The notes beneath the pieces were generated by a model. It searched no databases. It was not told the origin of the DNA and saw only the letters and a list, made by a program, of their open reading frames with translations. The position numbers and the translations under genes were made by a program. DNA of 11,942 nt, taken from assembly GCA_028689195.1 (NCBI GenBank), contig JAQTWR010000047.1, positions 1-11,942 on the forward strand. The letters run 5' to 3'. Numbering within the stretch: the first letter of the stretch is position 1; every line of letters begins with the position of its first letter. The DNA is from Anaerolineales bacterium. GTDB taxonomy: Bacteria > Chloroflexota > Anaerolineae > Anaerolineales > Villigracilaceae. Of the stretch, positions 6,710-11,942 are shown piece after piece.

Positions 6710-7216
6710 CTACTGAATATATTTTGCGAACTCCGCTTCAAAATCCTCTTGCGAGGTATAGCCGATAAATTTTTTCAACACCTTTCCGTTTGCGTCCAGT
6801 AAATAAAATTCGGGCTGGTAATAAAAACCCAGCGCGCGCTGAAAACTATCCGTATTCGCGTCGTCCGCGTCTAAAAATGCGAACTTGATCTTGCCGTAAT
6901 ATTTTGCTTCAAGCCCATGAACCATGGGCGCCATCGAGCGGCAGGTACTTCAGGTGAAGCGAAAAAATTCGACCATCTGCAAACCGCCCGAAGCGAGGTT
7001 AACCGTCGCGGGGTCGGTGGCTTGAAGTTTATCGCCGCGCGAAGTAACCGCAGGGACGACAGCGGGCGCTTGCGTGGCTTGAGGCTGGGAAACGCTTTCG
7101 GCGGGTTGAGTCGCTGCCTGCGTCGAATTCGCGGCGGGTTGTTTCGCTTGGGGGGCGCAGGAAGTCGACAAAAGGGCAACCAAAATCAGGGTTGGAAAAA
7201 AAGCGCGGGGTTTCAT
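6710..7216 (-). CDS. Thioredoxin-like lipoprotein, candidate selenoprotein (TGA = Sec in UxxC)
   Basis: Read through one in-frame TGA (6950-6952), this gives 168 residues. The signal peptide MKPRAFFPTLILVALLSTSC suggests a lipoprotein (Cys20, non-ideal lipobox). A Gln/Ala/Pro-rich linker leads to a thioredoxin fold. The strand MVEFF is followed by RFT-U-STC-RSMAP, where the TGA (residue 89) replaces the first Cys of CxxC and Cys92 is the resolving Cys. Then come a helix (HGLEAKYYG), the strand KFAFLDADD, and the probable cis-Pro135 (YYQPEFYLLD), 43 residues after Cys92 (41 in E. coli thioredoxin). Both halves are in the same frame and the fold is complete only when joined. AAGGAG precedes the ATG. 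The likely role is extracytoplasmic thiol-disulfide or peroxide chemistry; the exact substrate is unknown. The alternative is a nonsense mutation or base error converting TGC/TGT to TGA. Confidence 0.8.
6906..6939 (-). promoter_or_regulatory. SECIS-like hairpin downstream of the in-frame TGA
   Basis: In the minus-strand RNA, GCCCAU (6929-6924) pairs perfectly with AUGGGC (6918-6913) around the loop GGUUC. A lower stem (bases 11-16 after the UGA with 38-44, one bulged A and one G-U pair) is separated by a UGGC bulge. Bacterial SECIS elements lie directly after the UGA, with the apical loop about 16-37 nt downstream and a conserved G-U in it; here the loop starts 27 nt after the UGA and begins GGU. 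This matches what SelB recognises, but has not been scored by software. Confidence 0.65.
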
Positions 7217-7235
7217 TTCATCTCCTTATATTTTT

Positions 7236-7739: not shown

Positions 7740-8336
7740 ATGAGTCTTTTGCGCGCCTTTATCGCCATCGAATTTCCTAAACATACCCGCGATGCGGTCG
7801 CTCAACAAACCGCGCAGCTGCGCCAAACTTTGGGGAACGATATTATCCGCTGGGTTCCGCCCGAAAATATGCACCTGACGCTAAAATTTATCGGGGAAGT
7901 CGCCGCATCGCATCTGAGTTTTCTCAAGCAGATGATTTCTCACGCGGCGGATTCATACCCTCAGTTTGACCTGCAACTCAGCGGGCTTGGCTCGTACCCG
8001 GCGACGCGCCCTCCTCGCGTGTTGTGGATTGGAATCCACGCCCCGAATATTTTAATCGCGCTTCAAAAAGATATAGAAGCGGGCGCGGCGCGATTAGGAT
8101 ATGAACCCGAAGAACGTCCTTTCGCGCCGCATCTCACGCTCGGCAGAACGCGCCAAAACGCAAATCCCGCCGAACTGCCGAAAATCCGCGCCGCGCTGAA
8201 CGCAATTCAACTTGGCAAAATTGATACCGCGCAAATAGACTCCGTCCATCTTTTCAAAAGCGATCTGAACCCGGGCGGCTCGATCTACACAAAATTATTT
8301 TCTGCGCCATTAAAAGCGGACTCAAGAATCCCCTGA
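7740..8336 (+). CDS. thpR: RNA 2',3'-cyclic phosphodiesterase (2'-5' RNA ligase family)
   Basis: This 198-residue cytoplasmic protein belongs to the 2H phosphoesterase superfamily. Both catalytic motifs are present: HLTL at 45-48 (in NMHLTLKFIGE) and HLTL at 131-134 (in PFAPHLTLGR), about 86 residues apart as expected. The N-terminus LLRAFIAIEFP and the late VHLFKSDLNPGGSIYTKL are also characteristic. Family members hydrolyse 2',3'-cyclic phosphate ends of RNA to 2'-phosphate and can join tRNA halves with a 2'-5' bond in vitro; the cellular role is unclear. No good ribosome binding site precedes the ATG, and the previous stop is 6 bases away, so translation probably depends on coupling to the response regulator gene. 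Confidence 0.94.
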   Translation: MSLLRAFIAIEFPKHTRDAVAQQTAQLRQTLGNDIIRWVPPENMHLTLKFIGEVAASHLSFLKQMISHAADSYPQFDLQLSGLGSYPATRPPRVLWIGIHAPNILIALQKDIEAGAARLGYEPEERPFAPHLTLGRTRQNANPAELPKIRAALNAIQLGKIDTAQIDSVHLFKSDLNPGGSIYTKLFSAPLKADSRIP

Positions 8337-9620: not shown

Positions 9621-11942
9621 TTAACGTATTAACTCTTCCGCCTTGTTATAGGCTTCGAGGGCTTCCTTCAAACGGTTGGCGCGCATATAAGCGTCGCCCA
9701 ACGCCTGCCAGATACTCACTTCCACAGGGTAGCGGTAAATGGATTCTTTCAAATCGCGGATGGTCTCTTCGAGATGTTTCCCCTTCTTGATGAGATTTCC
9801 ATAATGCTTCAACGCCGTCGGAATGTCGCCGCGCTCCAACTCGCCCTTGGCTTGATCCAACGCGGCGGTTCCGCTTTGCGCCTCAGGTTGGCGCGTCCGC
9901 GCGGGCAATCCTGTTTTCTTCCTGGCGGGCGCATCTGCGGGTTGAACTTGAACGGGCTGCGCGGGTTTCTGCGCCACAGGTTGCTTCTGCTCGGGCGCGG
10001 CTGGAATTGGCTTCGGCTCGACGGGTTTCCAATCTGAAGGCGAGGTGGGCATGGGCTGCACAGACTCGAACTTTTCGCGGTGATCCCATGGCGAGAGTTC
10101 GTCCTCATCGGGGATAGGCTCCGCTTCGCTGGTATCCAGAAGCCAATCGGGCAGGCTTTCCATCGCGGCGGGCGCAGGTTCCTCTTTTGTCACAGGCTGC
10201 CAGTCATCGGCTGATTCTTTTGCCTGAGAATCCACGTCGCTCAACCAATCGGGCAGATTGGATTTTGAAACAACGGGCGGCTCGTTTTTATTTGCAATCG
10301 CATCAGCCGCGATGGAAGCGGGCGTGGGCATTGCGTCGAAGGGAAGTCCCGGCTCCTCGTCCAAACTGCTCAGCCAATCTGAAAGATCGTTTTGCGGCAT
10401 ATCCTCGGCAGAAGTCTTTGGCGCGGACAATTCATCTACGCCGCTCAACCAGGCGGGCAAATCGGATTTTTGCGAATCTTGGGTCCGTCCGCTTGCGTCC
10501 GTATCGCTCAGCCATTCTGGGATTTCGCCGCGTTCTAAAGCGGGTTCTTCCGTTTGGTTTGCGGATTGGGCTGTCGAAGCGCTTTCAAATTCGGCAAAGA
10601 ATTGCTCGCCGATATTCATTGCGTTTTCAACGGGCGCGGATTGTTCTGGCTGCGAAGCGCTTTCGAATTCAGCGAAGAATTGCTCGCCAATATTCATCGC
10701 GTTTTCAACGGGCGCGGATTCTTGCTGACCGATGTTTTGCGCCTGCGTCACCCATTCGGGCGGGGTCTCGTTGCGTTTGCTTGGGTCGGTGACCAGTTCT
10801 TCGGGTTTTGCGCCGTGCTTCGCGGCAAGCGATTCGAGCCATGCAACCGCGTCGTCTTGTTCCTGCGCGGTGGAGCCTAATCTATCGGCAGAAGCGGCGG
10901 GCGGCTTTTGAACGGGCGCGGATTCTTGCTGACCAATATCTTGCGCCTGCGTCACCCATTCGGGCGGAGTCTCGTTGCGTTTGCTTGGGTCGGTGACCAG
11001 TTCTTCGGGTTTTGCGCCGTGCTTCGCGGCAAGCGATTCGAGCCATGCCACCGCGTCGTCTTGTTCCTGCGCGGTGGAGCCTAAACTATCGGCAGAAGCG
11101 GCGGGCGGCGCGGGCGTAAATTCAACGGGCTGCGAATCGCCAAGTCCGCTGAGCCAATCAGGGACGTCGGCGGGTTGCGCGGGCGTTAATTCAACAGGCT
11201 GCGAATCGCCAAGTCCGCTGATCCAATCGGGGACGTCGGCGGGCTGCGCGGGCGTTAATTCGACGGGCTGCGAATCGCCAAGTCCGCTGAGCCAATCGGG
11301 GACGTCGGCGGGCTGCGCGGATTCGGTTTGCGGAGTTTGCCCTTTCAGCCAATCAGGAATATCAGCGGGGGCGAGCTCTGACGCGGGTTCTTCATCAAAC
11401 ATAGAGGTGGGTTGTTCAGGGCTGGTGGATTCTCCCCAACCTGCGGCGCGAAGGAAATCGGGAATGCCATCGCTCGATTGGGAAGATTCGGGCGCGGGGG
11501 CTGCCTCTGAAGATTCCGCGGGCTTCAACCAATCGGGTTGTTCGGATGGCGAAGCGGCAAGCCCAAGCGAGGAACTCCACTCGCGCGGCGCGGATTCTTC
11601 CATTTTGTATTCGAGCCGCTCCAGATTAATGGCGGCATCGGGGACTTCGCTAGATTGAAAAACGGAGCCTTTTACGAAAGTGGCGTACGGGTCGAGTTCG
11701 CCGACGCGCATACGATAAACCTGCGTGCTTTCGGCGGCGCCTGCCGTGGCGGGCAGCAGCTCGACCATGATGCGGTTTGCGTCGAAGCAATACGCGTAAC
11801 GTTTGAGCAGTTGCACGCACATATCCGACGCATCCGCTTTTTGCCCGCCCTTGAAGTAGGCGCGCGCGAGCAGGACTTGCATATCCATGCGCTGCGGGTC
11901 CTGGGCAAGCACGGCGCGAATTTCGGCGATGGCTTGCGGATA
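9621..11942 (-). CDS. Large TPR protein with repetitive D-W-L linker (5' end outside window)
   Basis: 773 codons are visible; the frame is still open at the right edge and starts inside a TPR (YPQAIAEIRAVLAQDPQRMDMQVLLARAYFKGG), so the true N-terminus lies beyond. A C-terminal TPR block (from about GTAALDQAKGELERGDI to the end, EALEAYNKAEELIR) closes the protein. Between them lie about 580 residues of acidic, Pro/Ser/Glu-rich, probably disordered sequence. At least ten short P-D-W-L-like motifs occur there (IPDWLKG, VPDWLSGLG, LPAWLSGVD, LSDWLSSLD, LPDWLLD). Three families of internal repeats, of 23, 68 and 26 residues, are embedded in it. No catalytic domain or signal peptide is visible. TPRs suggest a scaffold, and the D-W-L motifs look like repeated docking peptides, but the partner is unknown. 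It precedes ndk in the same direction. Confidence 0.85.
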   Translation of the reverse strand, partial: YPQAIAEIRAVLAQDPQRMDMQVLLARAYFKGGQKADASDMCVQLLKRYAYCFDANRIMVELLPATAGAAESTQVYRMRVGELDPYATFVKGSVFQSSEVPDAAINLERLEYKMEESAPREWSSSLGLAASPSEQPDWLKPAESSEAAPAPESSQSSDGIPDFLRAAGWGESTSPEQPTSMFDEEPASELAPADIPDWLKGQTPQTESAQPADVPDWLSGLGDSQPVELTPAQPADVPDWISGLGDSQPVELTPAQPADVPDWLSGLGDSQPVEFTPAPPAASADSLGSTAQEQDDAVAWLESLAAKHGAKPEELVTDPSKRNETPPEWVTQAQDIGQQESAPVQKPPAASADRLGSTAQEQDDAVAWLESLAAKHGAKPEELVTDPSKRNETPPEWVTQAQNIGQQESAPVENAMNIGEQFFAEFESASQPEQSAPVENAMNIGEQFFAEFESASTAQSANQTEEPALERGEIPEWLSDTDASGRTQDSQKSDLPAWLSGVDELSAPKTSAEDMPQNDLSDWLSSLDEEPGLPFDAMPTPASIAADAIANKNEPPVVSKSNLPDWLSDVDSQAKESADDWQPVTKEEPAPAAMESLPDWLLDTSEAEPIPDEDELSPWDHREKFESVQPMPTSPSDWKPVEPKPIPAAPEQKQPVAQKPAQPVQVQPADAPARKKTGLPARTRQPEAQSGTAALDQAKGELERGDIPTALKHYGNLIKKGKHLEETIRDLKESIYRYPVEVSIWQALGDAYMRANRLKEALEAYNKAEELIR
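10576..10720. repeat. 78-base (26-codon) tandem repeat in the TPR gene
   Basis: Two units starting at 10576 and 10654 encode NAMNIGEQFFAEFESAS plus a variable tail ending in SAPVE. The copies differ mainly at third codon positions, suggesting an older, selected duplication. Confidence 0.85.
10707..11108. repeat. 204-base (68-codon) near-identical tandem repeat in the TPR gene
   Basis: Units begin at 10707 and 10911. Each encodes the segment that includes DDAVAWLESLAAKHGAKPEE and NETPPEWVTQAQ. They differ at only a handful of bases, so the duplication is recent or the copies are homogenised by recombination. Such a repeat could vary in copy number and can be collapsed by short-read assembly. 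Confidence 0.9.
11113..11318. repeat. Three 69-base (23-codon) tandem repeats in the TPR gene
   Basis: Units at about 11121, 11190 and 11259 repeat exactly every 69 bases and encode DVPDW(L/I)SGLGDSQPVE followed by an Ala/Pro-rich spacer. Each unit delivers one D-W-L-type motif at regular spacing. Confidence 0.9.

Follow-up and report, generated by a model that had tools for sequence, protein, structure and literature searches.

An apparent stop codon almost certainly encodes selenocysteine in a predicted thioredoxin-fold lipoprotein of Anaerolineae

Introduction

Classical thioredoxins carry the active-site motif WCGPC. A selenocysteine (Sec)-containing thioredoxin (PF00085) with a UxxC active site is given as an experimentally verified prokaryotic selenoprotein in PMC13188914 and PMC9312934, whose lists also hold a DsbG-like family, and the first of these lists NF041057 (Rcas_1661 family thioredoxin-like (seleno)lipoprotein) as DsbG-like with a UxxC motif. 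For the Anaerolineales, single-cell genomes have revealed Sec formate dehydrogenases and a Sec translation factor (PMC4959059); the words selenoprotein and thioredoxin are absent from the main text of that paper.

The window analysed here is a stretch of 11,942 nucleotides from a metagenome-assembled genome (MAG) of an Anaerolineales bacterium that is 82% complete, with 2.85 Mb on 422 contigs. In one of its genes, an apparent stop in mid-gene almost certainly encodes selenocysteine, which would make the product a selenium-dependent redox lipoprotein. The described family nearest in kind is NF041057, likewise a thioredoxin-like selenolipoprotein with UxxC, but membership was rejected, as the window protein gave no match at E 0.01 (cut-off 190 bits); a relative (L117) matches weakly, with 23 of the 190 bits. 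Among the matches listed, NF041057-like genes without TGA, below the cut-off, lie on contigs C113 and C144 of the window genome, and a third match of this genome exists outside the matches listed. With the Sec thioredoxin the window protein shares the PF00085 domain and the UxxC active site, but it differs as a predicted lipoprotein with a long linker, reads U-S-T-C-R-S-M-A-P-M-V-H-G rather than WCGPC, and falls far below the cut-off of the NCBIfam thioredoxin model (29.9 vs 96.8 bits). With the extracytoplasmic thioredoxins of the TlpA/ResA/DsbE type it shares an exported thioredoxin fold, and it may plausibly be a client of CcdA as well; its match to that group is weak (DsbE, 25.5 of 123 bits). 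A TlpA-like gene, named from its sequence, is separate from the family gene and lies upstream of it in 6 of 102 loci (L114, L119, L120, L123, L125 and L127). No NCBIfam model had its cut-off passed by any of the seven proteins scanned. The window family is absent from the lists in PMC13188914 and PMC9312934, in whose main texts the strings Chlorofle-, Anaerolin- and lipoprotein do not occur, and a search of literature mostly outside the subscription journals listed no title naming it.

Results

Reading frame and predicted protein

Translation of the minus strand from 7216 to 6710 yields 88 residues, the TGA at 6952-6950, a further 79 residues and the stop TAG (Table 1). The earlier note, made from the letters of this DNA, had described two same-frame halves split by a single TGA at the first Cys position of a CxxC motif, and had regarded TGA as an ordinary stop elsewhere in the window. 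Translation bears out each of these points: there is one internal TGA, it falls at residue 89 and is followed by STC-RSMAP, and two other window ORFs have TGA as their normal stop (1397-1399 and 8334-8336).

Table 1. Features of the selenoprotein locus in the window
Feature	Position	Strand	Remarks
CDS, Sec-containing thioredoxin-fold lipoprotein (predicted)	6710..7216	-	168 residues with UGA = Sec; stop TAG 6712-6710
In-frame UGA, residue 89, first position of active-site motif U-S-T-C	6950..6952	-	
TGC codon, Cys92, second active-site residue	6941..6943	-	Invariant, 21/21 rows of alignment A2
Pro135, probable cis-Pro facing the active site	6812..6814	-	Invariant in A2; directly before strand 136-140 (model)
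bSECIS-like hairpin G-CCCAU-GGUUC-AUGGG-C	6913..6929	-	CCCAU arm begins after 21 nt from UGA
Thioredoxin domain, about residues 78-165	6722..6985	-	Pfam PF00085, AlphaFold2 model, Foldseek
Predicted signal peptide and lipobox, Cys20 at its end	7157..7216	-	STSC in window copy, atypical
Shine-Dalgarno-like AAGGAG, ahead of ATG	7222..7227	-	Sequence

Read through with TGA as U, the protein passes the cut-off of the Pfam Thioredoxin profile PF00085 (35.8 vs 23.5 bits, residues 78-162). The AlphaFold2 model (pLDDT 82.6 on average; block means 93-98 for residue 71 and beyond) places a helix (90-105) directly after residue 89 and a strand (136-140) directly after Pro135, the predicted cis-Pro, and Foldseek related the model to a thioredoxin at 7.1e-8, the best PDB matches both by fold and by sequence being thioredoxins. 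Assignment to PF00085 is by the curated profile cut-off, and in the model by the fold, a redox pair where the first long helix begins, and Pro135. The earlier suggestion that the second half carries the rest of a thioredoxin fold, probable cis-Pro included, is upheld by the Pfam match, the model and the invariance of Pro135 in alignment A2, which has 21 rows.

In A2, every invariant or nearly invariant column other than M1 and C20 is at residue 69 or beyond; Cys20 is present in 21/21 rows. A permissive lipobox is found in 84 of 103 rows, and the window copy, with its atypical S-T-S-C20, is not one of them.

The codon at residue 89 in relatives

The set of relatives comprised 151 genomes, the window's own included, 126 of which gave matches to the read-through protein at E 0.001; the weakest of these matches are taken to be other thioredoxins. 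Among the matches listed, 122 aligned stretches cover residue 89, with TGA in 112, Cys in 8, GCG in 1 and CTG in 1. The GCG belongs to an upstream copy in locus L127, and the CTG to a frame-shifted reading in L146 (genome G104), which retains a TGA at the corresponding position. When 17 duplicate rows, mostly repeat records of one contig, were dropped, 103 distinct copies were left, and the homologue alignment that had been proposed as a check shows Cys or TGA at the site in all of them (95 TGA, 8 Cys). By genome, the counts among the matches listed are 88 for the TGA form and 8 for the Cys form. A homologous position with Cys or UGA, by which a bacterial selenoprotein is recognised, is thus found here. 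TGC or TGT at this codon had been named as a sign against the selenoprotein reading; in relatives it occurs in the 8 copies just mentioned, which come from 8 genomes, 5 of them without SelB and SelD. A fast tree of the 103 rows needs three changes between U and Cys, of which its starred branches force only one; with few columns and long branches, the tree does not fix the direction or number of these exchanges.

Counting one site per locus, the next stop lies 70-82 codons past the UGA in 88 of 93 loci. Over 70 downstream codons pN/pS is 0.27 (means 0.192/0.718), calculated from 2280 non-independent pairs with pN < 0.30 that were compared site for site with no alignment step. Across the 18 codons that follow the UGA, which contain the hairpin, pS is 0.42, versus 0.82 further on. 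The downstream half is under purifying selection and is a working part of the protein; decay of this half in relatives, which the earlier note would have held against its reading, was not seen.

A covarying hairpin downstream of the UGA

RNAalifold, run on an alignment of 94 distinct TGA sites (A1), produced unprompted a single hairpin in columns 28-42 (CCCAU-GGUUC-AUGGG), 21 nt after the UGA, with two-sided changes in 3/5 pairs. In a six-pair version of the hairpin 97.9% of cells are paired, and 35 cells are changed on both sides, versus a shuffle mean of 5.5 (0/500 shuffles as high); hairpin controls slid along the alignment have 0 or 1 such cells. Two of the five pair measures for the six-pair version fail to exceed the shuffles; the count of pairs changed on both sides (4) was reached by 63/500 shuffles and that of further pair types (8) by 296/500. 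The C-G pair at columns 30-40 is U-A in 9/94 sites, where the Pro codon ends in U and the partner codon is AGG, so that Arg replaces Gly, and the pair at columns 28-42 is U-A in 7 sites, with Pro changed to Ser. Pairing is therefore kept where the amino acid changes.

Not one of the order's 8 Cys forms has all five core pairs. Searches of the class and phylum added 28 further TGA sites, among them one (L180) that looks identical to a site of A1 (L060), and 26 of these have five pairs and 2 have four; the 14 Cys sites from the same searches, many of which a WCGPC motif marks as ordinary thioredoxins, have five pairs in 1 case and four in 3. Folded as a single sequence, the window hairpin is not unusually stable (z -0.85), so that the case for it rests on covariation instead, and Rfam at gathering thresholds had no match in the window. 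Its distance and loop agree with the general description of a bSECIS. Judged by sequence comparison, a candidate bSECIS hairpin, shortly after the UGA and kept by compensatory change, is present.

Selenocysteine machinery

The window genome holds a tRNA-Sec (66.4 vs an Rfam cut-off of 47 bits; ARAGORN anticodon tca), SelB (337 vs a cut-off of 242 bits) and SelA, the last broken in two at contig ends (445 bits for one piece, 26 bits for the other, an N-terminal fragment). Of the four genes for which a search had been advised (selA, selB, selC and selD), three are accordingly present, the tRNA being tRNA-Sec(UCA), but no SelD over the cut-off turned up in this MAG, which is 82% complete; the sole match reaches 60 of 125 bits. 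Over cut-off, SelB occurs in 126 and SelD in 127 of the 151 genomes. Given this frequency and the incompleteness of the MAG, we infer that SelD is missing from the assembly rather than from the genome; it is only in relatives that the Sec pathway is seen complete. In the SelD of relatives, one in-frame TGA is seen in nearly all listed matches over cut-off.

Among the matches listed, 88 genomes have the TGA form, 6 of them without SelB and 8 without SelD over cut-off, and none lacks both. Three genomes with the TGA form but without SelD (G028, G057 and G087) are nevertheless 95-100% complete by estimate. SelB and SelD are both absent from 14/151 genomes, of which, among the matches listed, none has the TGA form and 5 have the Cys form; weak matches of two of the 14 (G114 and G126) lie outside the matches listed. 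Of the eight Cys-form genomes, those five lack both proteins, and G116, G132 and G150 have both. A Fisher test of codon form against machinery, which ignores kinship, gives p 9e-7 and overstates independence, because the five Cys genomes without machinery belong to one genus.

Distribution and database annotation

Searches of the class and phylum with a profile of 21 rows, at a threshold of 1e-15, gave matches in 76/298 class genomes and 32/301 phylum genomes. Among the class matches listed at E < 1e-30, 37/38 contain TGA, the exception being in G422, and the 50 loci examined from both searches comprise 36 with TGA and 14 with Cys at the site. About a quarter of the sampled class genomes thus have a clear match, and Sec prevails there. 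All 19 named family loci are labelled Chloroflexi/Chloroflexota, Anaerolineae or a group within it, or Brevefilum.

Database relatives numbered 31, and 11 were examined at the site. Five have Trp there (P0001-P0005), and Cys is found in P0006 and P0008, the start of P0008 being unrelated; P0007 starts after the site, and P0009, P0010 and P0021 end at the residue before the stop. The split annotation that had been predicted is therefore real, with three of the 11 entries ending before the stop, one starting after it and five carrying Trp. Many related, mostly uncultured bacteria share the protein, and sequence databases split or misread it.

Discussion

Proposed mechanism and gene neighbourhood

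Computation has established the reading frame, the conservation of the UGA, a hairpin that covaries, the thioredoxin fold and the Sec machinery (minus SelD in this MAG). Taken jointly, they are read as a selenoprotein directed by SelB and the hairpin, exported, lipid-anchored, acting as a thioredoxin-type oxidoreductase and reduced, probably, by CcdA, and we regard this joint reading as very likely correct. SelB and Sec-tRNA(UCA) would read the UGA at 6952-6950 as selenocysteine, the short hairpin inside the coding sequence, 21 nt downstream, directing the insertion. After export, a lipid attached to Cys20 would anchor the product, which would act outside the cytoplasm as a thioredoxin-type thiol-disulfide (selenenylsulfide) oxidoreductase, in which Sec89 is expected to attack and Cys92 to resolve, and its reduced state would probably be maintained by a CcdA-type membrane protein, with partner, direction of electron flow and substrate all presumed.

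The window genome encodes a DsbD_TM (CcdA-type) protein (71.7 bits, in an ORF of 242 residues), and 3 loci, all from a single family, have a CcdA-like gene at a distance of 1.6-1.9 kb downstream of the selenoprotein gene. An HMA-type P-ATPase gene is found downstream in 10/102 loci (L114, L123, L125-L127, L133-L135, L137 and L138), with a CsoR-like gene between the two in 4 of the 10, these names being read from sequence. Both neighbour links, to CcdA and to the HMA-type ATPase, are suggestive only as regards function. The neighbourhood of the 102 loci has no single partner gene, and its commonest neighbours are uninformative on function: an aldehyde-dehydrogenase-like gene, upstream in 45/102 loci and divergent in 44 of these, and an ATG22/MFS gene, downstream in 25/102 rows (the window's place being entered twice, as the window and as L027), were both rejected as partners and look like chance synteny.

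Alternative explanations

The HMA-type neighbours raise the possibility that the protein is a selenoprotein whose main role is metal handling, at a copper site or under copper stress, and not general disulfide reduction. The downstream ATPase genes and intervening CsoR-like genes speak for such a role, but all of these loci are in other taxonomic families, none in the window's own, and 6/10 are Cys forms; we consider it unlikely. Sec insertion in bacteria competes with termination, and the export signal sits in the upstream half, so one could picture a regulated stop at which low selenium yields a lipoprotein cut short at 88 residues as a genuine product, with Sec read-through as the minor outcome. 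With the conserved columns of A2 starting only at residue 69, apart from M1 and C20, there is no hint that the upstream half functions alone, and this version is distinctly improbable.

Two further explanations dispense with selenium altogether. If UGA were reassigned or leaky and read as Trp, the Trp of entries P0001-P0005 would follow directly, but that Trp is also the output to be expected of a gene caller set to TGA=W. Two other window ORFs end normally at TGA, the sense codons found at the site are Cys, save for the one GCG copy and the one frame-shifted reading, and a Trp reading leaves both the covarying hairpin and the tRNA-Sec(TCA) without explanation, which makes it very improbable indeed. 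That the TGA is a nonsense mutation or sequencing error, with the downstream half a relic, is scarcely credible. In its favour, the assembly does show a broken frame, and close to the site relative L146 (G104) carries differences that disrupt the frame, but the TGA form recurs in 88/151 genomes among the matches listed, and conservation contradicts decay, both in the downstream pN/pS of 0.27 and in the place of the next stop, 70-82 codons on in 88/93 loci.

Significance and related observations

Beyond the single gene, we think it probable that the lipoprotein belongs to an unlisted family of outer-face thioredoxins for which Sec is the rule wherever the class has clear members, and whose in-gene SECIS would dictate the residues P-M-V-H-G/R, is broken in the order's Cys copies and apparently serves two UGAs (UxxU) in one genus. 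The Anaerolineae, known here mainly from MAGs, would thereby gain a widespread selenium-dependent redox protein that databases split or misread. As a comparative case, the family shows Cys forms alongside lost Sec machinery in one genus, and a stretch of protein constrained by the RNA signal that overlaps it; the presumed extracytoplasmic selenium chemistry of the protein is open to test by expression in a laboratory host.

Several related genes were seen alongside the family. L147 (35-490, minus strand) and L148 (2459-2914, minus strand) hold a paralogue in which two UGAs stand in frame at a spacing of 9 nt, reading WUTTURA (UxxU), and which has one hairpin, CCCGU/ACGGG, 21 nt past the first UGA; when L147 is counted from its second UGA, the predicted fold no longer keeps this hairpin. 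A second, different type of Sec thioredoxin, with a hydrophobic stretch near its N terminus and the motif YUVGC, is found at L107:429-914, where a hairpin CCUGU/ACAGG stands at an equal distance. Two TGA-containing family members lie in tandem at L115:2291-3415 (genome G095). The upstream copy in L127, beside a TGA-form gene, has WAPDS in place of UxxC and apparently no redox pair. Weak matches (E 1e-7 to 1e-4) with one TGA each, in G022, G036, G048, G067, G079 and G107, are possibly other Sec thioredoxin-like proteins. Elsewhere in the window, the minus strand of 9621-11912 holds a 763-residue ORF whose internal repeats, PADVPDWLSGLGDSQPVELTPAQ for example, are nearly identical.
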